This document shows, one piece after another, positions 19,239 through 34,134 of a stretch of DNA of 34,158 nt. The notes below the pieces were generated by a model. The model searched no databases, was not told where the DNA came from, and saw only the letters and a program-made list of their open reading frames with translations. Origin of the DNA: Clostridiaceae bacterium (GTDB taxonomy: Bacteria > Bacillota > Clostridia > Lachnospirales > Lachnospiraceae); the NCBI GenBank assembly GCA_021200535.1, contig JAJQGL010000056.1, positions 19,108 through 53,265 of the forward strand, read 5' to 3'. Position 1 is the stretch's first letter. Each line of letters begins with the position of its first letter. The position numbers and the translations under genes were made by a program.

Positions 19239-20126
19239 TCATAAAGGCGATTCATACACACCGTTTTCAACAAGTTTCTTGAAACTCTCCTCAACATAAG
19301 CCTGATCTTCTGCATATGTAACTCCAAACCATTTGTCATTTGTTTCAAGCATTTCTACAGATGCCTTACCATAGCCAATCAGCTTATCAATAATGGTTGG
19401 CAGAAGATATTCTGTAGTTGCTGCATCTGAGTCATTCAAGAACTGAACAAAACCCGATTCCAGAACATCCATGAACTCTGGTGTCAATCCCCACATATTC
19501 ATCGAAACATGAGCATTCGGGTTAATCTCTCCGACATATTCTACCGCAGCGCCATTATCCGTCTTAATGATATGGTAGGTTTCTTTTACTGCCTGTAAGT
19601 AATTATTCTCGTTTATTTGACAGATTCCCCTCGTTACGGAACCGTTCTGACTTAGAGTGTTTTTTAATATGAATCCAGCCATGCAATATTGGAACTGAGT
19701 TTTCTCATGAGCAACTAAAAAATCATGAATCTTTACAAACGCTTCTTTCCCATAATAATCATCAGCATTAATTACACAAAAAGGTTCATTTATAATTTCC
19801 TTTGCTGCTAAAACAGCCTGCCCAGTACCCCATGGCTTTATCCTGTTCTCCGGCACCGAGAATCCATCAGGTAAATCGGATAGTTCCTGGAAAACGTATT
19901 CTACCTCACAGATATTCGAGATACGATTTCCAATGATGTCTTTGAAGTCAGCTTCGATGTCCTTACGGATAATAAATACAATCCTATCAAATCCCGCTTC
20001 AAGGGCATCATGAATGGAATAGTCTATGATGAGTTCACCACTCGGTCCTACCGGGGTGAGTTGCTTTATACCCTTCCCAAACCGGCTGCCAATACCGGCA
20101 GCCATAATCAATAGTGTCGTTTTCAT
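19239..20126 (-). CDS. Sugar-phosphate nucleotidyltransferase, 295 aa
   Basis: The start is ATG at 20126 after AAGGAG; the frame is open upstream but without a ribosome site. The N-terminus L-L-I-M-A-A-G-I-G-S-R-F-G-K-G-I-K-Q-L is the nucleotide-binding loop of the nucleotidyltransferase family, followed by I-I-D-Y-S-I-H-D-A and the metal-binding V-I-N-A-D-D-Y-Y-G. M-N-M-W-G-L-T-P lies in the sugar-binding half. It would activate a sugar phosphate with NTP for the repeat unit; the exact sugar is not evident, as it is neither a typical GalU nor RfbA. It begins 89 nt after the DUF1919 gene. Confidence 0.85.
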   Translation of the reverse strand: MKTTLLIMAAGIGSRFGKGIKQLTPVGPSGELIIDYSIHDALEAGFDRIVFIIRKDIEADFKDIIGNRISNICEVEYVFQELSDLPDGFSVPENRIKPWGTGQAVLAAKEIINEPFCVINADDYYGKEAFVKIHDFLVAHEKTQFQYCMAGFILKNTLSQNGSVTRGICQINENNYLQAVKETYHIIKTDNGAAVEYVGEINPNAHVSMNMWGLTPEFMDVLESGFVQFLNDSDAATTEYLLPTIIDKLIGYGKASVEMLETNDKWFGVTYAEDQAYVEESFKKLVENGVYESPL

Positions 20127-20214
20127 ATATCTCCTTAAAACATTGGTTCTAATTGTAATCTCTTTACACACACACTGTGACTTCCTTCTTGTGGACGTTA
20201 GGACGATACCATAA

Positions 20215-20879
20215 TTACTTAAGTAAGATTCCGTCTCCATTTATAAAAGCAGGCACATCAAAATATCTATTGTAGTAATATGTATCGTTACGGATTTGCT
20301 CATCATCCTCAAAACCAGGATAATATACGCCGCATTTATAATGATGTTCCTCTTCCGGTACAAACATAAATTTCTTCCCTGGAAGTTCTAAGAAATCGAA
20401 TTCCTTAAGTTGCTCTTTCGTGCAGGAATTCATATAAGAGAATTTGAAAATGAGATTATCCCAATTTACTCTCTTAACTCTCTTTGTCCACTTGTCTTTC
20501 GTAAGGACAGCTTTCTTATAATGCACAAATACGATTTCAACATCGTCCAAAACACCAATAGGGCAGTCCTCATTTCCATTATTTTTAATCTGTTCCTTAT
20601 GCCTAGCCTCTTGCGCAGTGATCATCTTAATGTCCAACGAAAGATAGTATTCAAGCTTCTGGACAAATTTCAAATAATCATCGGCAAAGAAATAACACCC
20701 CACTGTAGGCGACTGCTTTTGTAATCCAAATGATTCATAGATTACCCCCCCCAACAATTATTTGAGATTATTGTAAAATCCGTATTATTCAACTTTTTAC
20801 GTTGATGAAATGCTCTAAAATTTCTTGTCTTCATTTCGGCTTGATGAAGAATTCTCTCTGGTAACGCTGGGTTAAACAC
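20215..20879 (-). pseudogene. DUF1919 polysaccharide protein, frameshifted at a G8 tract
   Basis: The start is GTG at 20879, overlapping the flippase stop codon and preceded by GGAGG eight bases upstream. The reading frame continues through F-T-I-I-S-N-N-C-W-G-G and then meets TAA right after a run of eight G, giving a 45-residue peptide. One more G would rejoin the downstream frame V-I-Y-E-S-F-G-L-Q and give a normal 221-aa DUF1919 protein. N-N-C-W-G-G is the conserved start of this family, which occurs in capsule and exopolysaccharide loci and is probably a sugar-modifying or transferase enzyme. The downstream frame alone opens with TTG at 20757 but lacks the conserved strand. It is either phase-off or damaged. 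Confidence 0.85.
20745..20752. repeat. G8 homopolymer (C8 on the plus strand) inside the DUF1919 gene
   Basis: A run of eight G on the coding strand lies within codons for W-G-G. The run length decides whether the gene is open (nine) or closed (eight, as here). Such tracts are classical slipped-strand mispairing sites. Confidence 0.8.
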
Positions 20880-22311
20880 TGTTAATTCCTCCTCGATTGA
20901 ATTGTTTTTTTAAATACAAATACACAATACTCAGCATCGCATAAATTATAAATCCGACAATCATTTTCGTAAGAATATTAAGTATCGGGCTTGCAATTTG
21001 TATATATGAAAGACAAATATACATCAGCAAACCTATCATGCAAAATGCAACTGTATCAATTATAAAAGAACTATAATTATATATTCTGGTAGTCATAACG
21101 ACTTGAACAATCAATACAGCAAATTCCGCTAACACAGTACCCCAGACTGCTCCAAGCCCTTGGTAGACTGGAATCAAGAAATAATTAGCTACGAGATTAA
21201 CTGCTGCGCCAGCAAATACAGAATATATATAAATATTATCTTTCCCTGATGGAATAATCAATTGAGTCCGAACTGATCCAGCTATGGACTTGAAAACAAT
21301 TGTCGGGCAAAGACATGCTATATAAATACCACATGTTGCAAATTCAGCCCCATAAAACCAGACAGCAAAAGTTTGAGAAACACTCGAAAGACCAAATGCA
21401 AATAATATACTGCCGCAAGACATAAATATCATAGACTTTGCGAACAGTTCTCTACTCTTATCTTTTTTACCACTCGCCAACAAATTGGACATTCTGGGCA
21501 TCAGCACATTTCCAACGGCCATTACAATCGAATTTGGAATTTGAGCAATTTTCTCAGCGTTCGTATAAAATGCAACTTCATCATCCGTACTCAGCCAGCC
21601 AAGCATTAACTTATCCATAATATTGTATAAGCTAATGGCGATAACCGGTATGAATAAAACTAAATTCGGTTTAATGTGTGATAATACCCCTTTATAGCTT
21701 ACCTTGACGAACGAAATTTGTTTTTTAGCAAACGGCCATAATACTGCAACACTAAGCAGTGTTCCAAACGACATTATGAAAGTATAAATGGCCAGATCAC
21801 CAGTATCCTTTACAAAGAGGAACACTGCAGCCGCATTTAGCAACTTTATTATAATATTTCGAGTTACCGTTACCTTAAATTGTTCCGTTCCAAAAAAGAA
21901 CCACGAAATATCTAAACCGGCGGAAACAACGTAAAAGATTTGTAAGATATAGATAATCTTATTATCAGAGATAGCGAAAAAAACATAAGCTATGAAGCAA
22001 GCAGTAACAATAAGTGTCATAATAACCTGGAAAATATATATCTCCCAGAATGTCTTGCTCATTTCCTTCTTATTATCGCGAACTCTTGCTATTGCTCTAT
22101 TTCCGTAATTGGACACCCCAAGCATGCCAAATAGAACAAAATAGTTTGCAAAAGCTTGTGTATACGAATATACACCAAGTTTAGTCGCTCCAAGAACTCG
22201 CGATATATAAGGCGACGTGATCAGTGGTATAATAAGAATAAACACCTGATACAACGTACTATAGATAATATTTGATTTCAGGTTATCCCCTTTTTCTTTA
22301 TTCAATCCCAT
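20872..22311 (-). CDS. Oligosaccharide flippase (Wzx-like)
   Basis: A 479-aa polytopic membrane protein with about 12-14 hydrophobic helices and the MATE/PST-type N-terminus: I-I-P-L-I-T-S-P-Y-I-S-R-V-L-G and G-V-Y-S-Y-T-Q-A-F-A-N-Y-F. It would move the undecaprenyl-linked repeat unit across the membrane. GAGGA sits in front of the ATG at 22311, and the preceding polymerase gene ends four bases away. Its C-terminal Ile/Asn-Ser-Val stop overlaps the GTG start of the DUF1919 gene. Low GC compared with glmS and ugd suggests the cluster's variable core. Confidence 0.9.
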   Translation of the reverse strand: MGLNKEKGDNLKSNIIYSTLYQVFILIIPLITSPYISRVLGATKLGVYSYTQAFANYFVLFGMLGVSNYGNRAIARVRDNKKEMSKTFWEIYIFQVIMTLIVTACFIAYVFFAISDNKIIYILQIFYVVSAGLDISWFFFGTEQFKVTVTRNIIIKLLNAAAVFLFVKDTGDLAIYTFIMSFGTLLSVAVLWPFAKKQISFVKVSYKGVLSHIKPNLVLFIPVIAISLYNIMDKLMLGWLSTDDEVAFYTNAEKIAQIPNSIVMAVGNVLMPRMSNLLASGKKDKSRELFAKSMIFMSCGSILFAFGLSSVSQTFAVWFYGAEFATCGIYIACLCPTIVFKSIAGSVRTQLIIPSGKDNIYIYSVFAGAAVNLVANYFLIPVYQGLGAVWGTVLAEFAVLIVQVVMTTRIYNYSSFIIDTVAFCMIGLLMYICLSYIQIASPILNILTKMIVGFIIYAMLSIVYLYLKKQFNRGGINSV

Positions 22312-22315
22312 TCAG

Positions 22316-23722
22316 CTATTCCTCTTGCAGATTGGAAAAATCGTACTCGCTGTCAACAAACTTACACATAATGACCATTGGTAGAAGTGTTGATGTAAAA
22401 GTAGATCCAAATAAAATAAAATTTTTGCATACAATCATTGATGACAGATATAACATAAACATGGTGTATGTTCCATATGAAAATATATGTTTTGCAGAAT
22501 GCATCCTTTCTTCAGCGTGTATAGCCCCCTTTGCAAATAACATAGAAAGAATCGGTGAAAATACAAAGCCAAAATAATGATATGACTCTCCTACCAAGGG
22601 TAATATTTGTCCTGCTATATCATTTCTTTCACAAAATATTTCTGTAAGATTCGTCACTTGAAGACCAAACAACGAATTTCTAAATGGGATCATAGTATAA
22701 AAATCCGCGAATATAGTATTCAAAACATTGGTCCTCTCGATTTTTACAGTTCCCGCCACATTAGCGATCCCAGGAAGATATGCCTGTAAAGAACTGCCGA
22801 GATTTTCCACATATGCATCCCAAGATGTAAATCCTCCCTTTATAAAAGGCAGTATTACAAGTGCAGCCGCCATCGCCGTTCCAAAAACACCAAGCATAAT
22901 TCTTTTTGAACCCGGCCAAAGTTTTATAGTTGCAAATAAAATAAAAAATAAGATATAGAATGCGAACATTAATTGTGAACTTATAAAAGTCATTTGTATC
23001 AAAGCTATTACAAGTGCGGATATAATACCCACAGATGTCCGTGAGGAACGTTGTCTTATTTTATAGAGTACCCACAAGGTAACAAAGAATCTGCAAAAAG
23101 TCACTAGCATTGCTCCTATGGTATACAATGCTCTGGTAGAAGAAGATAACTCATCTTTGTCGACATTATTTGCAATTTGTACCAGGTTTTCAATGTTGAA
23201 TAAGGAATCAAAAGAATCCCTTAAAGATGGCACAGTAATCCAAATTACGATCGTTATGAAAAATAACCCGAACAGCATGACATTAAATAATCTTTGCTGG
23301 AACGCACCATAATTCAGAAAGCCATCTCGATCACCAACAGACCATGGAGTTACTACTTTCAACCTCCGTGACAGTACAATAAATACCATAAATGTTTCAT
23401 ACAACATCAACGCTATTGATAAGTTCACATCGCTCTCGCTTGTGATATTGATTCCTAGTTTAAAGTCGTTAGCCGCCAATAACAGCGGAGTGATCACATT
23501 TCTTATAAAGTACAAAGCGTAGATTATAATCTGAGAAGGATATACTAACATTTCATCTGCGACAGGTGCAAAGACGAGCATAATAATACCGTGTATTAAT
23601 GGAAGCAAGAACAAATATTTATATACAGTACTACTACCATTATCACCTAGGAACATTGAAATGTATATTATAACGAAAGCTACTATGCCGATCGAAATAT
23701 TTTTGTAAACAGAATTTCTCAT
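22316..23722 (-). CDS. Wzy-like oligosaccharide repeat polymerase
   Basis: A 468-aa membrane protein with roughly 12 hydrophobic segments and few recognisable motifs, as usual for Wzy polymerases. The start is ATG at 23722 behind AGGAG; an upstream TTG/ATG candidate has no site. The long central loop between helices (about residues 300-370, with N-L-G-S-S-L-Q-A-Y-L-P-G) and the position directly before the flippase support the polymerase call over a generic membrane protein. It would link repeat units on the outer face of the membrane. It is the only full-size polymerase candidate in the window. Confidence 0.75.
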   Translation of the reverse strand: MRNSVYKNISIGIVAFVIIYISMFLGDNGSSTVYKYLFLLPLIHGIIMLVFAPVADEMLVYPSQIIIYALYFIRNVITPLLLAANDFKLGINITSESDVNLSIALMLYETFMVFIVLSRRLKVVTPWSVGDRDGFLNYGAFQQRLFNVMLFGLFFITIVIWITVPSLRDSFDSLFNIENLVQIANNVDKDELSSSTRALYTIGAMLVTFCRFFVTLWVLYKIRQRSSRTSVGIISALVIALIQMTFISSQLMFAFYILFFILFATIKLWPGSKRIMLGVFGTAMAAALVILPFIKGGFTSWDAYVENLGSSLQAYLPGIANVAGTVKIERTNVLNTIFADFYTMIPFRNSLFGLQVTNLTEIFCERNDIAGQILPLVGESYHYFGFVFSPILSMLFAKGAIHAEERMHSAKHIFSYGTYTMFMLYLSSMIVCKNFILFGSTFTSTLLPMVIMCKFVDSEYDFSNLQEE

Positions 23723-23752
23723 ATATCTCCTCGCTCCAACAAACGAAACCAA

Positions 23753-23842
23753 TTATAATATACCGGTGTGTCCGGACTTATGAAGTGTATAAATCATTCC
23801 GTATATTAAAACCGAGAATAGATACACATAATATACTGTCAT
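23753..23842 (-). CDS. 29-residue hydrophobic ORF, possible EpsG-type remnant
   Basis: The start is ATG at 23842 with AGGAG at good spacing, overlapping the end of the glycosyltransferase gene. The peptide begins M-T-V-Y-Y-V-Y-L-F-S-V-L-I-Y-G-M-I-Y and ends after H-T-G-I-L. The beginning resembles the first helix of EpsG-type polysaccharide polymerases. The rest of such a gene is absent; the Wzy-like gene starts 31 nt later. It may be a decay remnant or a genuine small membrane peptide. Confidence 0.4.
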   Translation of the reverse strand: MTVYYVYLFSVLIYGMIYTLHKSGHTGIL

Positions 23843-23843
23843 T

Positions 23844-24987
23844 TTACAGTCTCCTACAAATCACTTTTTGGTTCTCCCACTTTTTCGCCGCTTCAATGTA
23901 CAAATTTTCCAGAGTTTTAACTTGCTCATTTACATCAAATCCCGCCGCTTTAATTGCTTCTTTTTGTGAAGTTCTTTTATAGCCGTCTTTGTACTTTAAG
24001 ACCTCATCCGCCCATACAGACGGATCTTCATTCAAAGAAATATACTCTATTAAATCTGTCACTTTCGTGGATTTCGGAACACCTTCAAGGCTTGTAATGG
24101 TGTGTAGTCCAGCAGCTTGAGCTTCAACCAGGACATTTCCGAAACCTTCATACTTTGTAGGCAACACAAACACATCCATAGCCTGTAACAAGTCGGGGAC
24201 ATCGGTTCTAATCCCGGTAAATACCGTCTTGTCTTCCACACCATATTCTTTTACCCAACTATGTACTTCCTTTTCCTGCTCTCCCCCGCCAACGATCATC
24301 AAGCGCGCTTTTGAGTATTTTTCGGCCACACACTTGAAAATTCTTATCATAAACTGATAATTCTTCTGATCATGAAACCGGCCGACTATTCCGACCACAA
24401 AATAATCCTCCAGATTCCATAACTTTCTCTGTTCTGCTCTTTTTGCAATATTGAAATCATATTTTTCAACCTGTATAGCATTCGGCAAAACAATGACTTT
24501 GCCTTTCTCAAACGCCTTTTTCCCAAACATATCAATGGCTGCATCATCACTGCAAGCAAGCCAATGCGTGGCAAACAATTTACACAAAACTTTTGCAGGC
24601 GGTGTCAGATATTTCATTTTACCGACTTTTGGGACATACGCCATATGGTTATGAATCATCCGCACTTTAACGCCGCAAATCCATGCCGTAACAAGATGAG
24701 TTAGTCCTTTAACATTCATCCTACTGTGAACTATGTCGTAAGGATTGTCATGAAGGATTTTGTATATGTCGCCGATATTCTTTTTTGAGGCTTACGGTTT
24801 TAGGTGTAACCCTATAAATCTTACACCCAAGCTCCGAAAAGGTTTTTTCCAATTTTCCTTCATATTGACTATGTACGACAATATCGATGTGGACTTTGGT
24901 TTTGTCCATTTTTCTGTAATAATTAAGTAATATATTTTCAACTCCCCCACCATCAAGGCCGGAAAGTATTGTTAATACCTTTACCAT
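23844..24987 (-). pseudogene. GT4 glycosyltransferase split by a one-base frameshift
   Basis: The start is ATG at 24987, seven bases after GAGG. The first frame encodes a typical GT4 N-terminus (V-L-T-I-L-S-G-L-D-G-G-G-V-E) and stops at 24748. The rest (N-I-G-D-I-Y-K-I-L onward, including V-V-G-I-V-G-R-F-H and the E-x7-E type motif Y-E-G-F-G-N-V-L-V-E-A) lies in the next frame down to 23844. The shift maps to a run of six A on the coding strand (24781-24786); five A would restore one 382-aa enzyme. Without correction the two pieces are a donor-site-free N-terminus and an N-truncated C-terminal domain starting M-N-V-K-G-L-T, probably inactive. The acceptor and sugar cannot be inferred. Confidence 0.85.
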
Positions 24988-24996
24988 ATTCATCCC

Positions 24997-26145
24997 TCAT
25001 GCGCTTTGAATAATCTTTTCCAACTCGTTAACTTTATTAATAACCATGAGATGCGTTTCCGCATATCTTTTTCCTATTTTTCCTAAACCGCAGGCATACT
25101 CCTGATTTCTCATCATGAAATTCATCCAGTAGGTCATGTCTGCCTGATTCTTAACTATTACGCCGCCGGGAAGTTGACGAACAACTCCAACGTCTGTTGA
25201 AATGAACGGCAAACCGACAGCAAGTGCTTCTACAATGGTTATCGGATAATATTCATAATTACTCGACATTACACAAGCAAAAGCGTTTTTCGTGTACGCT
25301 GCAATCTGCTCCCTTGGAACAGAAAATTTTATCTGGACATCTCTTTGCCCATATTTACTATCCAACTCCTCTTTCACGTTAATCAGATGGTGATAGTAAC
25401 TATTATCCTGACTTCCAATTAGCAGCAATCCAAAAGCAGTATCCTCGGTCTCATAAAAGGCACGTATCGCCATCTCTTGGTTTTTCCTGTCACAATAATT
25501 GCCAACATAGATAAAATAATTATTCTTTGCGTTATTTGTGTTTTCGGGAATTTCCGCAAAAAACTCGTCCTCACATGCATTTTCTATGACATAATTATGA
25601 TCATAACCGTGGTTCTTGAAGTACCTATAACTGTTATCATTTTCAAAAAGGTGCATGACTGCATCGAATTTTTTTATTTTGCCAAACTGCCTTGTGTAAA
25701 AAAACTTCCATCGAGTATTCCGAAACGCTGTTTTCATCACATCCTTAAGCCCATTTCGCTCACTCAGATGCATTTTGAAATCCGGCATTCCATGAAGGTA
25801 CAACACCTTTTTACACTTAATGTCGTCCATATCATCCAGCAACCAATCGGCAGCAAAAGATTGAAGGCACACTGCTACAAGAGCATCTGCGTTGGAGCAC
25901 TGCTTCTTCACTTCGGAAACATATTCTTTTTTATCTCCACGGTGCCAATAATAGAAATTATATGCATTCACGCGAATGATGTTTACGCCATTATGTGTTT
26001 CACTGTCAGGCACGTCATTCATCTTTGATGTAATAACAACTACTTCATGTCCTTTTTTCGCTAATCCTTCTGCCTGATATTGTGTCACCATTTGTACACC
26101 ATCTGTCTTCGGCCAATAGGTGGCTACTGTAAATACAACTTTCAT
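24997..26145 (-). CDS. GT4-type glycosyltransferase, 382 aa
   Basis: A GT-B fold enzyme. The N-terminal domain opens K-V-V-F-T-V-A-T-Y-W-P-K-T-D-G-V-Q and contains G-H-E-V-V-V-I-T-S; the C-terminal domain has F-I-Y-V-G-N-Y-C-D-R-K-N-Q and the E-x7-E type segment Y-E-Y-Y-P-I-T-I-V-E-A-L-A-V-G-L-P-F-I. It would add one sugar to the lipid-linked repeat unit on the cytoplasmic side. Only a weak GAGGG precedes the ATG at a long distance. It ends ten bases before the next transferase gene starts. Donor and linkage are unknown. Confidence 0.9.
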   Translation of the reverse strand: MKVVFTVATYWPKTDGVQMVTQYQAEGLAKKGHEVVVITSKMNDVPDSETHNGVNIIRVNAYNFYYWHRGDKKEYVSEVKKQCSNADALVAVCLQSFAADWLLDDMDDIKCKKVLYLHGMPDFKMHLSERNGLKDVMKTAFRNTRWKFFYTRQFGKIKKFDAVMHLFENDNSYRYFKNHGYDHNYVIENACEDEFFAEIPENTNNAKNNYFIYVGNYCDRKNQEMAIRAFYETEDTAFGLLLIGSQDNSYYHHLINVKEELDSKYGQRDVQIKFSVPREQIAAYTKNAFACVMSSNYEYYPITIVEALAVGLPFISTDVGVVRQLPGGVIVKNQADMTYWMNFMMRNQEYACGLGKIGKRYAETHLMVINKVNELEKIIQSA

Positions 26146-26163
26146 AGAATATAATCATTCCCT

Positions 26164-26397
26164 CTAATGTTTATGCTTCAAAAGCGCCAAATGTATCCTG
26201 AAAAGAATTATTTTTCTCGAAAATGGATATCTGAAAATCATATCAAAGAGTCTTTTTCTCTTATAGTCTTTTGACTGTTGGCTCTCATCATCAGCACTTC
26301 TAAACTCATTTTCTCTATCCAGTTCAGCTTGGCTGAACTCCTTTTCCAACCGCTTCTCTATGCAATTTCCTTTTATATAGAAATTATCATAATCATC
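26164..26397 (-). pseudogene. Detached C-terminal part of the DUF6625 protein
   Basis: This stretch is in the same frame as the gene ending at 26398 and would continue it for 77 codons if the TAG were sense. It encodes D-D-Y-D-N-F-Y-I-K, a charged helix and a basic end L-F-D-M-I-F-R-Y-P-F-S-R-K. The paralogue at 28280-29332 has a comparable C-terminal extension (K-G-K-M-I-N-I-K-I-H-Q-A-L-L), matching R-I-H-L-A-L-L here. Independent translation is unlikely, as the internal ATG at 26349 has no strong ribosome site. Confidence 0.7.
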
Positions 26398-27150
26398 CTA
26401 TGTAATATGAACAGCGGGTGACTTCCCGGACATATGCAGGTATAAGTATTCATCTGCCATAAGCCCTCGTTTATTATCCTCATAGACTCGGAACAGCTTC
26501 CCATCCTTCATGCAGAAGAATTCCTTACATTTCTCTGTTCCTCTTATATTAAGCCGAGTATTTTCTCTGATGGCATCTGCTATATGTAAATCCTTGTACC
26601 TTGAAATCCCATGCTTTTCTGAAATCCTGTTCATCCCGGTCATTTCATCAAAACCGCAGCTTTCAGTATGTGAGAACACATAATCACTTGAAAAGACACC
26701 GCCGTCTAACCGATATAAATGATTAATCCGCTCACAATTCCGGTATAGAATCAGTGCCCCTCTCTGACCGACAATATCATAATTTTCCAGGATTTCATCT
26801 GTGATTCCTGCCTTGAGATTTCCCCAAAGCATATCCAAATCACACTGTCCCCAAAAATCGTAGCCTTTCAATTCATCCGCAAAAGCCAGCCCGTAAACAG
26901 GCCTATAATCACACAGCTTATATGGCTTTTCAAGTTTGATTTTCTTTCCAAGACATTTACTGATCTTATCCTTCAAATCCGGAAAGCTGATATTATATAC
27001 AAATACATTATCGGGAGCATTTTCAACCTGCTCATCAGTCACAAGCATAAAGTCAAACTTAGGGTTATTTCCGCATGTCCATAGCCACAGATTGAAATAC
27101 TCCGGGAATTTTCCATAATAGCAGCAAATTATCTTAACTTTGTTATTCAT
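26398..27150 (-). CDS. DUF6625-family protein, truncated by TAG
   Basis: The start is ATG at 27150, ten bases after GGAG (an ATG at 27159 is too close). The protein of 250 residues shows family features: V-K-I-I-C-C-Y-Y-G-K-F-P-E, F-D-F-M-L-V-T-D, the D-x-D type Q-C-D-L-D-M-L-W-G-N-L, L-I-L-Y-R-N and the C-terminal E-Y-L-Y-L-H-M-S-G-K. DUF6625 proteins occur in polysaccharide loci and have a GT-A-like arrangement, so they are probably glycosyltransferases. The TAG at 26400-26398 ends the frame just after the core domain. The core may still be functional, since the lost part lies outside the conserved motifs. Confidence 0.8.
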   Translation of the reverse strand: MNNKVKIICCYYGKFPEYFNLWLWTCGNNPKFDFMLVTDEQVENAPDNVFVYNISFPDLKDKISKCLGKKIKLEKPYKLCDYRPVYGLAFADELKGYDFWGQCDLDMLWGNLKAGITDEILENYDIVGQRGALILYRNCERINHLYRLDGGVFSSDYVFSHTESCGFDEMTGMNRISEKHGISRYKDLHIADAIRENTRLNIRGTEKCKEFFCMKDGKLFRVYEDNKRGLMADEYLYLHMSGKSPAVHIT

Positions 27151-27155
27151 TCTCT

Positions 27156-28283
27156 TCATACTCCAACCAACTTCTTATATACCGCAAGAGTATTCTGAGC
27201 GCACTGCTCTTTCGTGAATAGCTGCTTAACGGCCATCTGTCCAGCCTTTGTCATCTCCGCGTTAAAGCTATTATTAATAGTGCCCCGGATTGCTTCAATC
27301 AACGCGTCTTCGTTATCTTTATCAATGCAAGTGACCCATTCCTGCATCTCCTGCCACCCTGGTGTTTTTGTTCTGATTACAGCGCACCCCATAGCAAGCG
27401 CTTCAATGCACACTAAAGGAAATCCTTCATATATAGAAGGCAGAACAAATAAATTTGACACGCCAAATACATTTCGCGGTTCAGAGAATCCCAGAAACTC
27501 TACGTTCAGTGAGTTATCCTTTGCATAGTTCTCTAATTCATCAAAGTATTCCTTGTACTGATCATCTACGGAGCCGGCAATTAGAATTTTAACTTTACTT
27601 TTTTCTTCCAGATTATTAACAGCCTGCAATAGCTTTAACTGCCCCTTGATAGGGCTAATTCTTGACAGCTCACATATAATGTATGGTGTCTTATCTGTAT
27701 CTATATGATATTCTTCATGCAGTGATTTAATTTCCTCTACTGAAAGAGGAGTCAATTTGTCTAAATCTGTTCCATTATTAACCACAAAAACTCTATTCGG
27801 ATTGCATCCATACTCTTCTACCATAAATCTACGTAACTGCTGTGATACAGATATAACCGGGAATTTCATCACACGGCACATGACTTTAAAGAGTTTGCTC
27901 TGTGGAATATCGTCAATATGATTTGTCCAGAGGTATGGGATTCCATTTCTCACCTTCAACAAATGCGCTGCAAATAGAAGTCTCTGGCTGTGGACATGAA
28001 CAATGTCTATCCCTTCTTCTTTTACAATTTTTTGAAGTTGTCTATACGAATTCAGTATCCCCTTTGGGCTCATACCGTCCGACCAAAATGTAGCTTTTGC
28101 ATAGCTCGTTTTTTTTAGCAAACTCAGCGTATCAATGCGCTCTCCCCATTCACATGCAACAACCACTTTTCCTATTTCACTTATGTTTTCATATTCCTTA
28201 CACAGATCAATAATATGCGTACTGACGCCACCTGCTCTATAACTTAAATGATTTAAACAGATTAATATATTATACGTCTTCAT
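27156..28283 (-). CDS. GT4-type glycosyltransferase, 375 aa
   Basis: A GT-B enzyme with N-terminal I-L-I-C-L-N-H-L-S-Y-R-A-G-G-V-S-T-H-I, D-I-V-H-V-H-S-Q-R in the acceptor domain and, in the donor domain, I-S-P-I-K-G-Q and P-S-I-Y-E-G-F-P-L-V-C-I-E-A (E-x7-E). The ATG overlaps the preceding stop codon in ATGA, and GGAGGTGA lies in front, so translation is coupled to the DUF6625 gene. It is complete and probably active, transferring one sugar of unknown identity to the repeat unit. Confidence 0.92.
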   Translation of the reverse strand: MKTYNILICLNHLSYRAGGVSTHIIDLCKEYENISEIGKVVVACEWGERIDTLSLLKKTSYAKATFWSDGMSPKGILNSYRQLQKIVKEEGIDIVHVHSQRLLFAAHLLKVRNGIPYLWTNHIDDIPQSKLFKVMCRVMKFPVISVSQQLRRFMVEEYGCNPNRVFVVNNGTDLDKLTPLSVEEIKSLHEEYHIDTDKTPYIICELSRISPIKGQLKLLQAVNNLEEKSKVKILIAGSVDDQYKEYFDELENYAKDNSLNVEFLGFSEPRNVFGVSNLFVLPSIYEGFPLVCIEALAMGCAVIRTKTPGWQEMQEWVTCIDKDNEDALIEAIRGTINNSFNAEMTKAGQMAVKQLFTKEQCAQNTLAVYKKLVGV

Positions 28284-29332
28284 GCGGTCACCTCCATGAG
28301 ATGACCATATGAGCTATAACCTACTAGCGGTTCATACCCCCCCCCGAAGATTTTCAGCCTATCAGCTAATAAAGCCTGGTGAATTTTTATGTTGATCATT
28401 TTTCCTTTCATACTTAGCCTCATAAATTTCTTTGTCTTAGCCTCTTTTGCTGTTTTCAGTTCGGCATTATCCTCATCTATACTGACAAAGCGATTAAATT
28501 CGCTTATTGTCTCAAGTGAGTATTCTGAATCTCCGAATGCTATAATCTCATCTGACAAGATACAGAATCCTCTTTCAGCTTCTCTATATGATAAATTGCA
28601 TTTCGGCTTCTTTCCTGAAAAATGAAGATAAGCATACTCATCGAAACAAACAGCCCCATTTTTCTCGTATACCCGCTTTAGTCTTCCTTTATCCCAACAG
28701 AAAAACTCCTTACAGGAGTCATATCCTCTTGCTTTGATTCTCATCAGTTCCGGTACAGCATTCGCTATCTTAATATCTGCTGAACCAATATTGTTCTTCT
28801 TCACGATTCTGTCCATTCCGGACATTTCGTCAAAACTGTAGTTTTCCGGATTTTTATATACTGTTTCATATGGAAAAGCGCCACCATTCAGCCTGTATAA
28901 GCGATTGATCCGTTCTGAGTTCCTATATAAAATCAGATGACCATATTTTCCAATCGCATCATAGTTGTTTAACATAGCCTCTGTAATATGATCTGATAAA
29001 TTTCCAAATATCAAATCAACATCACAATGCCCCCAAAATTCATACCCTTCCAGCTTGTCGGCAAGAGCCAAGCCATACAATGGCTTATAATCACATAGCT
29101 TATATGGGTTATCCAGGACACATTCAAATCCGAGTACCCCACTGAACCTGTTCTTTAATTCTCCCATTGGTATTTTCAAAGCTGTGACATTATTAGGCAT
29201 CTTATCGACATCCTGGTCTGTTACAAGCAGGAAATCAAATTCCGGATTGTATTCACAGGAAAGCAGCCACAAATTAAACCATTCGGGCAACTTTCCATAA
29301 TAGCAAACAATTAATTTCACCCGCCTATTCAT
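28280..29332 (-). CDS. DUF6625-family protein with a G9 tract near the 3' end
   Basis: A 350-aa paralogue of the 26398-27150 product. Shared motifs are V-K-L-I-V-C-Y-Y-G-K-L-P-E-W-F-N-L-W, F-L-L-V-T-D, K-P-Y-K-L-C-D-Y, the D-x-D type H-C-D-V-D-L-I-F-G-N-L, L-I-L-Y-R-N-S-E-R-I-N and F-D-E-Y-A-Y-L-H-F-S-G-K-K-P. A GT-A-like glycosyltransferase role is inferred. Nine G in frame encode G-G-G, followed by an 18-residue tail that overlaps the next gene's start. Eight or ten G would end the protein within a few residues of the tract, trimming only the tail. Confidence 0.85.
   Translation of the reverse strand: MNRRVKLIVCYYGKLPEWFNLWLLSCEYNPEFDFLLVTDQDVDKMPNNVTALKIPMGELKNRFSGVLGFECVLDNPYKLCDYKPLYGLALADKLEGYEFWGHCDVDLIFGNLSDHITEAMLNNYDAIGKYGHLILYRNSERINRLYRLNGGAFPYETVYKNPENYSFDEMSGMDRIVKKNNIGSADIKIANAVPELMRIKARGYDSCKEFFCWDKGRLKRVYEKNGAVCFDEYAYLHFSGKKPKCNLSYREAERGFCILSDEIIAFGDSEYSLETISEFNRFVSIDEDNAELKTAKEAKTKKFMRLSMKGKMINIKIHQALLADRLKIFGGGYEPLVGYSSYGHLMEVTA
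28337..28345. repeat. G9 homopolymer (C9 on the plus strand) in the DUF6625 gene
   Basis: Nine G on the coding strand encode G-G-G after K-I-F. In G8 the frame would read on to M-N-R and stop; in G10 it would stop after one residue. Together with the G8 tract at 20745 it is one of the two longest homopolymers noticed in the window. Confidence 0.8.
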
Positions 29333-29348
29333 GACCGCTCCTTTCCAC

Positions 29349-30446
29349 TCAATTCATACCTTTTACGAATTCAATTTCATTCAAATATTTTCGGACAACA
29401 ATCTGCCGATCAAACTCCTTCTCGACCTTTGCCCTGCCTGCGGTTCCCATTGCCATCTTCTGTCCATAAGTCAGACCTATGAACTTCTCCACTTTCTCAA
29501 TTAGATCCTTGCTATCCTGCTGCTTCACAATATAGCCATTCACTCCATCATCAATTACCTCACGGCAACCGCTTCGATTAGTTGTAATAATCGGTCTGGC
29601 GCAGGCAGATGCTTCAAGTAATACATTACTCAATCCCTCTGGGTAGAATGTCGGATGAACAACACAGTGAACTTTCTCATATATCTCCTGCATATTCTTT
29701 ACGAGCCCATGGTATATGACGATGCCTTTTTCCTGCTGTTCTTTCACAATGTCCTCATAGGCTTCTTCGCAATAACCACAGATATGGAACTGCGTATGAG
29801 GGTATTTTCCCTTTATGATTTTCGCCATTTCCAAGTATTGATCAATGCCTTTTTCTTTCATCAGGCGGGCAACAAAGACAAACTCAATTGTATCTTCACC
29901 CGGATACTCTACAGGCAAATAATACTGCAGGTTTACACCAGAACCAGGAAGCATCTTATGTTTTCCAAGAGCCAATCCCTTATTTGTGAAGAACTCTTCA
30001 TTTTCCTTATTTTGAAAGAACACAGTCTGCGCCTTCCTTAATCCATATCGATACAGTGAAAGCGTAATTTTCTGCATCATTCCACCGTTCTCTACTGCCG
30101 AACCCAGTCCAGTGATATTGGCTACATAAGGAACATTTAATGACGCACAAGCCGCACCACCATAAACATTCGGCTTAATTGTGTATGTAAAGACGATATC
30201 CGGCTTTTTCTCTTTTATAATTCTTTTATAAGACTGCATCAGTTTTAAATCCTGAACTGGATTTGTGCCATGCCTCGATATCTCGGTTTTAATAACCTCA
30301 CACCCAAGTGCTTCTATATCAGGAATCATATCTCCTTCCGGCAACGATGCATAAACAGTATGCCCATCTGATATCAAGCACTCTAAAAGTTCTTTTCTGA
30401 ATTTGTAAAGTCCAATATCATTATTGGCTAATATTAAGATACGCAC
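29349..30446 (-). CDS. GT4-type glycosyltransferase (PglA/EpsD-like)
   Basis: A GT-B enzyme opening R-I-L-I-L-A-N-N-D-I-G-L-Y-K-F-R-K-E-L-L, with F-T-Y-T-I-K-P-N-V-Y-G-G and V-A-N-I-T-G-L-G-S-A, the pattern of transferases that add the second sugar to an undecaprenyl-PP-sugar. The donor domain has F-V-A-R-L-M-K-E-K-G-I-D-Q and P-E-G-L-S-N-V-L-L-E-A. The GTG at 30446 is nine bases from GGAG and gives the usual M-R-I-L start; the ATG two codons earlier (30452) is only three bases from it. It overlaps nothing but follows the HAD gene closely and is the first transferase after the initiating enzyme. Confidence 0.9.
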   Translation of the reverse strand: MRILILANNDIGLYKFRKELLECLISDGHTVYASLPEGDMIPDIEALGCEVIKTEISRHGTNPVQDLKLMQSYKRIIKEKKPDIVFTYTIKPNVYGGAACASLNVPYVANITGLGSAVENGGMMQKITLSLYRYGLRKAQTVFFQNKENEEFFTNKGLALGKHKMLPGSGVNLQYYLPVEYPGEDTIEFVFVARLMKEKGIDQYLEMAKIIKGKYPHTQFHICGYCEEAYEDIVKEQQEKGIVIYHGLVKNMQEIYEKVHCVVHPTFYPEGLSNVLLEASACARPIITTNRSGCREVIDDGVNGYIVKQQDSKDLIEKVEKFIGLTYGQKMAMGTAGRAKVEKEFDRQIVVRKYLNEIEFVKGMN

Positions 30447-30460
30447 TGCCATTGTCTCCT

Positions 30461-31093
30461 TCACCAACTGTAATACAGCCCATCCTTATTTCTGAACCAT
30501 ATACACCGCATACCTAACTTCTCTGGTGCTACAAAATCCTTTTTGATGTTGTCACCGACATAACACATTTCTGAATACTCAACATCCAGCTTCTCTTTCA
30601 TCATACGAAACGCTGTGTCATTCGGCTTTCTGTATTCAATACCGCCAAGCTCGTCTGTGATAATAACGTGGTCTACATATTTTTCAATTCCAAGGGCTTC
30701 AATCTTCGCCCTCTGCCCTTCTGGTCTGCCGTCTGTGATAATACCCAACTTATAACCGGCTGCTTTCAGCTGAACTAACATGTCCAACACTCCATCATAT
30801 AGATGAATGTCTGGCTGCTGGAATCGGTAGGCTCTCAAGCATTTCTGCTTCAATTCATCTGTGTAGATTCCTTCATTCTTCAGCACCTCATCAAAGGCTG
30901 ATTTGCCTTTCTCAAATGCCCTCCACAGTTTTCCTTCACAATCCTCAACCTGTGGCAGGATGCCGGCTACCGCATGGTATCCGCTTCGGACATATTTCTT
31001 TTCTCCATAGAGTGTATCGTCAAGATCAAAGATGATGGCTTTCAATCCAGCTATGTATTGATTTACTTCTGTAACCTGGCTAATTTCTATCAT
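30461..31093 (-). CDS. HAD-superfamily hydrolase
   Basis: A 210-aa cytoplasmic phosphatase-type protein. Motif I is F-D-L-D-D-T-L-Y (Asp23 and Asp25), motif II is I-I-T-D-G-R, motif III has Y-R-K-P and motif IV is Y-V-G-D-N. The start ATG at 31093 overlaps the ATP-grasp stop codon (TGATG), and GAAGGG provides the ribosome site; a TTG one codon earlier is less likely. HAD and ATP-grasp genes are found as a pair in several Clostridia capsule loci. A role in dephosphorylating a sugar or amino-acid-like precursor is inferred. Confidence 0.88.
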   Translation of the reverse strand: MIEISQVTEVNQYIAGLKAIIFDLDDTLYGEKKYVRSGYHAVAGILPQVEDCEGKLWRAFEKGKSAFDEVLKNEGIYTDELKQKCLRAYRFQQPDIHLYDGVLDMLVQLKAAGYKLGIITDGRPEGQRAKIEALGIEKYVDHVIITDELGGIEYRKPNDTAFRMMKEKLDVEYSEMCYVGDNIKKDFVAPEKLGMRCIWFRNKDGLYYSW

Positions 31094-32091
31094 CAATTCA
31101 ACCCTTCATCTACACACACGCTCTGGTCGAACCTGCTGTACACGGCACCGTCCTTCGCAGCCTTCGCCGCATACTCAAGCTTCTCACCACACAGCATACG
31201 GATCACAGCCTTTGCGGAATCGGCTCCGGCTTTAATGCTTAGAGGAGCGCCGCCACCAAATCGTGGATTAATTTCTATGTAATAATCGTCACCGGTCACA
31301 TCATCACGGATAAGCTGCACTGTAATCTGACCGCAGGGCTTGAAGTCCTTAATCAGCATCTGCATTTCAGCAATCATGATATCATCCTGCGTGATTCTAG
31401 TTTTCAGAACCTCACCGGCTCTGACAGCAATACGCTCTCTCGGCGTGATGTACACAGGATTTCCTTCATAATCACAGAAGATGTCGATGGTGAATTCCCT
31501 GCCTGAAATGAACGGCTGGATGATGTAGTCGCCTATCTTCTCGGCGTACACTCTTAAATTCTCGATGCTCTTCACTTTATACGCATCAATACTGGAACTG
31601 CCGTCCTTGGGTTTAATGAACGCAGGAAAGCCTACAGTGCCCTTTCTCACTTCTTCTTCATATTTTTCTACCGTGTTGACCGGCAGAGGAGATTTCAACC
31701 CAAGAGAAATGAAATAATCTGCTGTGTAATTCTTGTCTCTACATAATTTGACCTTATCTACAGCACTGATAAGAACCTTAGTGCCTATAGCTTCGAATTT
31801 ATGCTTATTCTCTGCCAAAAGCAGAAGGTCCGTATCAATGGTAGGAATCAAGCAGTCCACACCTGCTTCTTCGCAAATCCGGAGAAGCTGTGGAATGTAC
31901 TGCTTGTCCTTAATTCTGCAAACGATTTTCGTTTCATCGCAAAATTGCAAAGCCGGAGCATCTGTTACTATGTCTGCCCCAATGATCGTCAAATCCACAT
32001 TCAGCTCATTCGCAGCTTTGCGGAATGCCTGCATCAATTCCACACGACGCCCAACGCTGGTAAACAGTATTTTATTACTCTTTTTCTTCAT
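31093..32091 (-). CDS. ATP-grasp carboxylate-amine ligase-like protein
   Basis: A 332-aa protein of the carbamoyl-phosphate-synthase-like ATP-grasp group. The N-terminal pre-ATP-grasp domain has F-T-S-V-G-R-R-V-E-L. The central P-A-F-I-K-P-K-D-G-S-S-S and I-I-Q-P-F-I-S-G-R-E-F-T-I-D bind ATP, and Y-Y-I-E-I-N-P-R-F-G-G-G holds the metal ligands. It would join a carboxylate to an amine, possibly decorating a sugar or making an amino-acid substituent of the polymer. The partner may be the deacetylase product, since an exposed amine would arise there. It begins with GGGAG before the ATG. Confidence 0.88.
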   Translation of the reverse strand: MKKKSNKILFTSVGRRVELMQAFRKAANELNVDLTIIGADIVTDAPALQFCDETKIVCRIKDKQYIPQLLRICEEAGVDCLIPTIDTDLLLLAENKHKFEAIGTKVLISAVDKVKLCRDKNYTADYFISLGLKSPLPVNTVEKYEEEVRKGTVGFPAFIKPKDGSSSIDAYKVKSIENLRVYAEKIGDYIIQPFISGREFTIDIFCDYEGNPVYITPRERIAVRAGEVLKTRITQDDIMIAEMQMLIKDFKPCGQITVQLIRDDVTGDDYYIEINPRFGGGAPLSIKAGADSAKAVIRMLCGEKLEYAAKAAKDGAVYSRFDQSVCVDEGLN

Positions 32092-32122
32092 TTCTGCTCG
32101 CTCCCACTTTTTCGTTCGAGCC

Positions 32123-32785
32123 TTATAACTCTCTCATCACCTGACGTATAACCATAAAACTCTCGGCATTCCTTACACCAACAGTCGAGCCACGAAGCCT
32201 TGATAATGCTTCTATGGCCTCTAGGGAACGTGGGTGTGGGAACTCTTTTATCTGGGTTTCAAAGCACGCCATAGCCCGTTTCTTTATCTCTATAAACTCT
32301 GTAATATCGCAATAGCAATTCGGTTGAAACATATTATCAACCGTTGGTGTGTTCCACTCCGTCTCAGACAAAGTTTCATATGCATAAATCGCGTTAAGCT
32401 GAGGATTTTCAATCGGTCTTAAAGCAACCATTGCGGCCTTTGCAACCTCAGAGTGGTCAATGTGCATATCTCCTTTGTGTGGAATATATGCAATATTAGG
32501 TTTTAATTCCTTTACTATCTTATCGAACCGAGAATTTACCTCTATTGTCGGGGTGTCCTTAATAGCTACCACTGGCAGTTCAAGAAATAGCGTGTCTTTG
32601 ACCCCCAATAGGTTATGTGCCTTAATAGCCTCGTCTTTTATACGTTGTACTAATTCAGGATTACTAAGGAGGCTTGTTGCTTCACAAACATAAACCTCGT
32701 GCCCCGCTTTTGCGTACTTTGCAATTGTTCCACCAACACCTAAAACCTCATCGTCATTATGAGGTGCAAAAACCAATACTCTCAT
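32123..32785 (-). CDS. PIG-L family N-deacetylase
   Basis: A 220-aa zinc hydrolase of the LmbE/PIG-L family. The start is ATG at 32785 after AGGTG; earlier ATG/GTG codons are too close to the site. The metal motif A-P-H-N-D-D-E is at residues 7-13, and H-I-D-H lies in G-D-M-H-I-D-H-S-E. Family members remove the acetyl group from GlcNAc-type sugars. It lies nine bases downstream of the formyltransferase gene; together they could replace N-acetyl with N-formyl on a repeat-unit sugar. Confidence 0.92.
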   Translation of the reverse strand: MRVLVFAPHNDDEVLGVGGTIAKYAKAGHEVYVCEATSLLSNPELVQRIKDEAIKAHNLLGVKDTLFLELPVVAIKDTPTIEVNSRFDKIVKELKPNIAYIPHKGDMHIDHSEVAKAAMVALRPIENPQLNAIYAYETLSETEWNTPTVDNMFQPNCYCDITEFIEIKKRAMACFETQIKEFPHPRSLEAIEALSRLRGSTVGVRNAESFMVIRQVMREL

Positions 32786-32794
32786 ACTCATCAC

Positions 32795-33694
32795 CTATTT
32801 CAGCTTATGCCCTACAAACATTTTCACTGAATCGACATTTTCATACTCCCAGACACGGATAAGGCCATCTACACCAACAACATCAAAGTGGTCTGTATGG
32901 ATTTCACATATTTGTCCCGGAATACCTATATATTTTTTATTCTCTAAAAAATCAGCTTTCCATATAATAATCTTGTGATTACCATCATACATGCCAAAAG
33001 CACCAGGATATGGTTTACTCACAGCTCGTATTAATCTTTGAATTTTCTCTACCGGCTCTTTCCAATCAATTAACCCATCCTCCGGCCTTCTTATTAAAAG
33101 GTATATAGCATCTTCTTCGTTTTGCTTTTGTGGTTTCAAAGTACCGTTAAGAATCTGTTTCAAAACCTTTGGTGTTAATTTTTTAAGAGCATCACAGAGT
33201 TTTCTCTCTACATCTACAGCGTAATCAGAATCTTCGATTACATATTCTTCTTGACCCAGAATGTCACCTGAATCCATTCCTTCATCTATTAAAAACAGAC
33301 TGCACTTTGTTTCGTGGACTCCCAGCAGCACCTGCCAGACCATAGCTGCACGACCACGATATTTAGGCAGTGGTGTTGGATGGAAGCCAACCACTCCACA
33401 CTTAGCTATATCAATAATCTCCTTGCTGACTATCTGCGATAATCCAATCACAAAAATATAGTCCGGATCTATATCACGAATAATCTCGATATTATCCGCT
33501 GTACCAATTTTTCTAAATTTAGTATAGGGAATCCCGTTCTCCTCTGCGGTTTTGTGTATTGGGTAGTACCCAGACACATTTTCAGAAAACTGCTCATCGA
33601 GAGAAAAAACCATATCCACAGGAAACCCCATATTTATCATTTCCTGCAGTACAATCTGACTAGATATTACTGAGCCAATTAAAACTGATTTCAT
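32795..33694 (-). CDS. Formyltransferase-family protein (sugar N-formyltransferase candidate)
   Basis: A 299-aa protein of the methionyl-tRNA-formyltransferase-like fold. The core has G-F-H-P-T-P-L-P-K-Y-R-G-R (His105) and D-E-G-M-D-S-G-D-I-L (Asp141). The usual N-x-H is G-F-H here, a variant I recall in sugar-associated members. A C-terminal FMT-C-like domain with R-P-E-D-G-L-I-D-W and P-Y-P-G-A-F-G follows. The genomic context, directly next to a PIG-L deacetylase and in a polysaccharide operon, favours a sugar substrate over initiator tRNA. The ATG overlaps the stop codon of the preceding transferase (ATGA). Confidence 0.85.
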   Translation of the reverse strand: MKSVLIGSVISSQIVLQEMINMGFPVDMVFSLDEQFSENVSGYYPIHKTAEENGIPYTKFRKIGTADNIEIIRDIDPDYIFVIGLSQIVSKEIIDIAKCGVVGFHPTPLPKYRGRAAMVWQVLLGVHETKCSLFLIDEGMDSGDILGQEEYVIEDSDYAVDVERKLCDALKKLTPKVLKQILNGTLKPQKQNEEDAIYLLIRRPEDGLIDWKEPVEKIQRLIRAVSKPYPGAFGMYDGNHKIIIWKADFLENKKYIGIPGQICEIHTDHFDVVGVDGLIRVWEYENVDSVKMFVGHKLK

Positions 33695-34134
33695 ACTTTA
33701 TCCTTCTTTGTTCCCATGAACTCACTATTCGTTGCACAACCATCCTCATTAATTCCTTCTCTCTTAACAACAATCGCTATCGTCCAGAAGAGAATTTTTA
33801 AATCCAAGAGGAAAGAAACATTATCAACATATTCCAAATCAAGCTCGAACTTTTTATCCCATCCAGCACTGTTTCGGACTCGTGACATGGCAAGCCCTGT
33901 CAAACCCGGTCTCACTTCATGACGCCGATGCTGTTCCGGGGTGTACCGATCCAGATATTTAACAAGAAGTGGTCTCGGACCTATCACAGACATATCGCCT
34001 TTTATGATATTGAAAGCTTCCGGGAGTTCGTCTAGGCTGGTACTTCTTAATATTCTCCCAAACTGGCGCTCGGTGAAATGGCGGTGAGCCTCCGTTAATT
34101 CGTGGTATTTAGGTACCTGATTTCCACCGCCTTT
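33691..34134 (-). CDS. Undecaprenyl-phosphate sugar transferase, 5' end broken or beyond the edge
   Basis: The initiating phosphoglycosyl transferase of the locus. Visible are F-G-R-I-L-R-S-T-S-L-D-E-L-P-E, K-G-D-M-S-V-I-G-P-R-P-L-L, R-R-H-E-V-R-P-G-L-T-G-L-A and D-L-E-Y-V-D-N-V-S-F, all hallmarks of the bacterial sugar transferase domain. The usual N-terminal membrane helix and K-F-R-T-M segment are missing: the frame meets TGA at 34137-34135, and the first ATG (33993) is too late. Upstream residues G-N-Q-V-P-K-Y-H-E-L-T are atypical. M-S-R-V-R-N replaces the usual Q-V-x-G-R-N. The gene is truncated by rearrangement or by unreliable sequence near the edge. Confidence 0.8.
   Translation of the reverse strand, partial: KGGGNQVPKYHELTEAHRHFTERQFGRILRSTSLDELPEAFNIIKGDMSVIGPRPLLVKYLDRYTPEQHRRHEVRPGLTGLAMSRVRNSAGWDKKFELDLEYVDNVSFLLDLKILFWTIAIVVKREGINEDGCATNSEFMGTKKDKV

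Follow-up and report, generated by a model that had tools for sequence, protein, structure and literature searches.

What does a run of eight G in the middle of a DUF1919 gene indicate: a dead gene, a misread one or a gene that is only switched off? The tract lies at positions 20745-20752 of the window (the whole 34,158-nucleotide stretch of DNA analysed here), where eight C on the plus strand correspond to G8 on the minus strand, with TA next on its own strand, and direct reading shows that it joins two different frames of the gene. The 5' frame (20742-20879, minus strand) encodes 45 aa from a GTG start, matches positions 6-33 of the DUF1919 profile (PF08942, E 2.5e-6) and ends in NNCWGG with a stop directly after the tract; the 3' frame (20215-20757, minus strand) encodes 180 aa, has a TTG as its first possible start and matches positions 32-177 (E 9.8e-35). 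The pieces score 120.3 and 27.6 bits, both above the Pfam gathering cut-off of 25, and because they match adjoining parts of the profile, with no other stop, the tract is the sole visible break in the gene. Its length thus sets the frame of an otherwise intact coding sequence, in which it has the size of about 8 G or more that defines poly-G contingency tracts. A Shine-Dalgarno-like GAGGAGG (20888-20894, minus strand), read directly, stands 8 bases 5' of the GTG start (20879), and the frame opened by this GTG overlaps by 8 bases the end of a flippase-type gene (20872-22311, minus strand; Pfam PF01943). The preliminary description had claimed a gene split by G8 at its NNCWGG codons, good start signals coupled to the flippase gene and no other lesion, all of which is borne out; its statement that the gene is "currently off" is valid only at the level of the assembled sequence which, the assembly being probably metagenome-derived, may be a population consensus.

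Of the four closest homologues, three share the NNCWGG motif at the tract and one has NNCWAG instead, and more distant DUF1919 homologues retain only N-C-x-G, or less. According to a homologue's model and the alignment, the frame is broken in the loop that follows the first beta strand, so that the 180-aa frame lacks this strand together with a near-invariant Cys, and the OFF state should therefore abolish function. Only one clear structural relative of DUF1919 was found, itself uncharacterised. The gene belongs to what appears to be a surface-polysaccharide locus, extending approximately from 19239 to 33993 (minus strand) and comprising genes for a nucleotidyltransferase-like protein, the flippase, glycosyltransferases and DUF6625 proteins, among others. 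One of the DUF6625 genes (28280-29332, minus strand; PF20330, E 2.5e-82) carries, by direct reading, a G9 tract (28337-28345, minus strand) that is in frame 18 codons from the gene end and that is also followed by TA; a change in its length would touch the C-terminus alone, as described for Helicobacter canadensis.

Within the window, five G7 words were seen for 2.5 expected, a number reached by 15 of 100 shuffles, so that an excess is not clear: the G8 tract is notable by its place and its class and not by its mere occurrence. Since a single G8 is no rarity by chance, the whole class of tracts was tested. The assembly to which the window belongs (118 contigs, 2.89 Mb, 91% complete) contains 14 runs of at least eight G, or 12 internal ones once two contig-end runs (G50 and G15) that look like artefacts are set aside, and 2 of these 12 are the DUF1919 and DUF6625 tracts. 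The organism is probably a Lachnospiraceae species, its GlmS being 94%, 93% and 90% identical to those of three MAGs labelled Clostridiales, Lachnospiraceae and Oscillospiraceae, and at most 83% identical to those of Blautia and others. Further internal runs occur in two hexapeptide-repeat transferase genes, of which one is in frame and the other broken, toward the end of an epimerase gene, in a gene for a GDPD-domain protein (broken) and in an aldo/keto-reductase-like frame, the remaining internal runs being located on contigs C20, C65 and C100. On contig C64, a G11 (L040, 3262-3272) is found just 5' of the gene for a 719-aa protein read as CapD-like; it has 14 nt of 3' flank in common with the DUF1919 tract, with one mismatch, and the proteins do not match. 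On contig C46, a G8 (L038, 2907-2914) breaks a protein-kinase gene, a piece of which matches PADLOC PD-T4-6 (E 1.2e-8) and whose neighbours in the row we take to be VWA-like, PP2C-like and helicase-like genes; this kinase is a possible switchable defence gene. Without the two contig-end runs, the genome has 7 runs of at least nine G for 8 of exactly seven, when a model that assumes a step probability of 0.3 predicts ca. 1 (P ~1e-4), and long tracts are thus commoner than chance in this genome, a property that does not extend to every genome of the genus.

A run of at least nine G is present in 21 of 28 same-genus genomes and absent from 7. Such runs strongly exceed expectation relative to G7 runs in G002 (7 vs. 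0), G003 (4 vs. 0), G004 (13 vs. 5), G006 (24 vs. 19), G013 (21 vs. 3) and G025 (10 vs. 13); in these counts, contig-end runs were dropped for the window's own genome alone, so that a few stay in those of G002, G019 and G025, and some runs, for instance in these three genomes, lie at most 75 bases from a contig end, where assembly artefacts occur. The opposite pattern is seen in G005 (6 vs. 94), G018 (2 vs. 149), G024 (2 vs. 41), G026 (4 vs. 102), G027 (2 vs. 73), G017 (1 vs. 33) and G016 (3 vs. 17), as well as in G001, G010, G014 and G022, which have no run of at least nine G for 2-16 G7 runs; the other ten genomes have 0-4 and 1-21, respectively. The excess depends on the species, some showing it clearly and others not at all. 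Of the 118 long runs of the genus, 87 are G9 and 22 are G10, and in 102 the G strand is the coding-like strand.

The effect of the tracts on reading frames was assessed in 100 stretches around runs of at least nine G from other genomes, runs less than 60 bases from a stretch end being dropped and at least 60 open codons being required on each side, a threshold that the DUF1919 tract itself passes only when lowered to 50. Different frames were joined by 21 of 39 runs of at least nine G, 2 of 3 G8 and none of 3 G7, with 2/20 for G6 and 24/177 for G5 (26/200 for G5-G7 together). In a separate count for G006, 5 of 7 runs of at least nine G were shifted. Runs of A or T behaved otherwise, with 7/101 for A7, 0/21 for A8, 4/89 for T7 and 0/13 for T8, that is 11/224 together, and the difference between these and the runs of at least nine G is pronounced (Fisher, 6e-13). 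Tracts at the same aligned place were found in 12 orthologue pairs, among which L113 (G9, in frame) and L159 (G10, out of frame) share 78-85% identity and L128 (G9) and L191 (G12) are 95-99% identical; in further pairs with unlike frame states, the upstream parts are short or weakly similar. For the window DUF1919 gene itself, no close orthologue was found in a survey including 397 genomes of the family.

As for the genes concerned, Pfam was run on the 90 of 118 tract pieces that have at least 100 aa and returned 73 families, 25 of which were listed; among the listed ones are response regulators (5), acyltransferases (4) and family-2 glycosyltransferases (3), then histidine kinases, group-1 glycosyltransferases and cellulases (2 each). 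The 17 pieces examined around G7 runs include a tRNA synthetase, an RnfC-type protein, a family-28 glycosyltransferase, a DNA methylase and a response regulator. In seven cases (L111, L115, L116, L142, L143, L156 and L179) the tract looks to be placed just after the signal peptide of a large secreted protein, and in L186, as in L305 and L309 of a genome of another genus (G144), it seems to lie near a lipobox. The G9 of L305 and the G10 of L309 are directly 3' of the apparent lipobox Cys, with frames that differ across the tract and short upstream parts. Elsewhere, in G168, a G11 (L313) and a G10 (L315) are each flanked by a TTG-type box and a TATAAT/TATGAT-type box, an arrangement that recalls promoters of variable spacing. 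Overall, long G runs form a set in surface-type and regulatory genes of the window's own genome and of some relatives.

Taken together, the DUF1919 G8 is likely a slippage-prone contingency site of the surface-polysaccharide locus that was sampled in its OFF state, a reading carried by the evidence on the class and not by direct proof. A G would be gained or lost at the tract during replication, and the ribosome would then shift between the frame that stops after NNCWGG and the one that reads through the DUF1919 domain; the tract would vary in this way in living cells, and the DUF1919 product would presumably alter a surface glycan. Slipped-strand phase variation, as put forward in the preliminary description, is supported in part, considerable indirect evidence coming from the excess of long G runs in some genomes of the genus, the frame breaks that are common at runs of at least nine G and rare at A/T runs, the contrasting states of L113 and L159 and the many surface-type carriers. 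Points against a switch are that G8 lies at the short end of the tract range, that the window shows no clear G7 excess, that the other DUF1919 genes measured lack a long run at the equivalent place and that several genomes of the genus are rich in G7 but poor in longer runs. Among the alternatives, the one that survives best is a sequencing or assembly error, in which the true gene would be uninterrupted and the run length miscalled. G homopolymers may sequence worse than those of A or T, and the assembly is fragmented and has artefact-like G50 and G15 runs at two contig ends; however, none of the 34 A8 and T8 runs found in these stretches was shifted, exact-G7 controls (18 stretches from G006 and two from G001) were shifted in only 1 of 11 cases, and frame breaks at runs of at least nine G recur across many independent assemblies. 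These results bear on the class of runs, and an error at this one site is improbable.

A plain irreversible pseudogene, in which an ordinary decay frameshift happened to hit a G run, is a still weaker candidate. DUF1919 is patchy, being detected in 2 of 28 same-genus and 21 of 397 family genomes, and the gene is therefore dispensable, and none of the other 23 DUF1919 ORFs measured has a long G run at the place equivalent to the G8. Twenty-two of them read through that place with G runs of 3-6, and a homologue in G088 (L047) has its own G10 (1503-1512) at a different place, near the 3' end. Against decay, both pieces of the window gene score well and display no second lesion, and the break coincides exactly with a run whose class is often frame-broken in relatives, so that a pseudogene appears quite unlikely. 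Productive transcriptional or ribosomal slippage yielding some full-length protein from a gene that is not off, which the run length makes conceivable, is very hard to reconcile with a site that is not conserved, the other 22 ORFs being read through and the run of L047 lying elsewhere, and with the many tracts of the class that are plainly in frame. A programmed frameshift site was also considered and rejected, the slippery site not being conserved in the 23 ORFs. DUF1919 genes of other bacteria likewise occur in sugar loci, one beside the translocase gene epsU in the L. johnsonii eps cluster and another in the A. pleuropneumoniae serovar 17 capsule locus, and the available portions of these sources contain no mention of a G tract in either gene (PMC3609815, PMC5901230).

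A feature shared by the two tracts of the window, the TA that follows them, was found to be common after long runs. In the genus, TA comes next after 50 of 118 runs of at least nine G and 6 of 14 G7-8 runs, for 17 of 357 G5-6 and 99 of 1401 G4 runs, independently of codon phase and in coding-like and other tracts alike, with a share that varies by species (12/13 in G004, 5/21 in G013). At the family level, 253 of 397 genomes have a run of at least nine G, and 159 have at least one that precedes TA. The 27 genomes that contain 10 or more of these runs total 587, of which 288 are followed by TA; the control in the reversed direction, in which AT stands before the run, gives 74, and removal of the extreme G173 leaves 226 of 461 with a control of 38. 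This latter genome (1.6 Mb, 68% complete) has 126 runs of at least nine G, far more than other genomes of the family. Finally, G9TA is present in 52 of 291 genomes surveyed across the class, high counts being confined to few families. No mechanism behind the TA emerged from the genus, family and class surveys. A broader and tentative reading, which we hold to be possible but short of probable, is that members of the Lachnospiraceae (the family as read) and some other Clostridia have a poly-G phasome on the Campylobacter scale, whose sites, the DUF1919 and DUF6625 tracts among them, would be marked by a run followed by TA irrespective of codon phase, a mark that may point to a cis rule or factor making or keeping the runs mutable.

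Poly-G switches of this kind are already known; the question that is new concerns the TA mark. As far as the available part of the source goes, in the Campylobacter phasome the coding strand carries long G runs, with length peaks at 9 and 10 and many surface genes among the carriers (PMC6321876). The tracts described here resemble it in their G on the coding-like strand, their G9-G10 peak, their surface genes and their in- and out-of-frame states, but differ in belonging to a Clostridia lineage, in being known from frames and relatives, and in the TA after the run, of which that part of the source offers no treatment. In Helicobacter canadensis, the accessible text describes coding-region poly-G with C-terminal switching (PMC2823697); coding tracts are found here as well, and that of the window's DUF6625 gene is likewise close to the 3' end, although in H. 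canadensis length variation was seen in reads and here the evidence comes from frames and relatives alone. For Gardnerella, again from the portion of the article at hand, phase variation has been proposed at runs of at least 8, some in surface-protein genes, with one shown to vary by sequencing (PMC11287997); run length and some surface-type carriers are similar, whereas the Gardnerella tracts are mostly upstream of genes and those reported here mostly in coding-like frames. No report of poly-G phase variation in Lachnospiraceae was found in searches of an open-licence library.

If the switch reading is true, some uncultured Blautia relatives would randomly vary the sugars of their surface and the proteins they secrete, by a mechanism for which Campylobacter, Helicobacter and Neisseria are the best-known examples. 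Some of the genes that appear frameshifted in such assemblies would then be switches and not pseudogenes, and the TA mark would provide a testable handle on the origin or upkeep of the tracts. Such switching would also be relevant to the coexistence of gut-type Clostridia with phages and host immunity.
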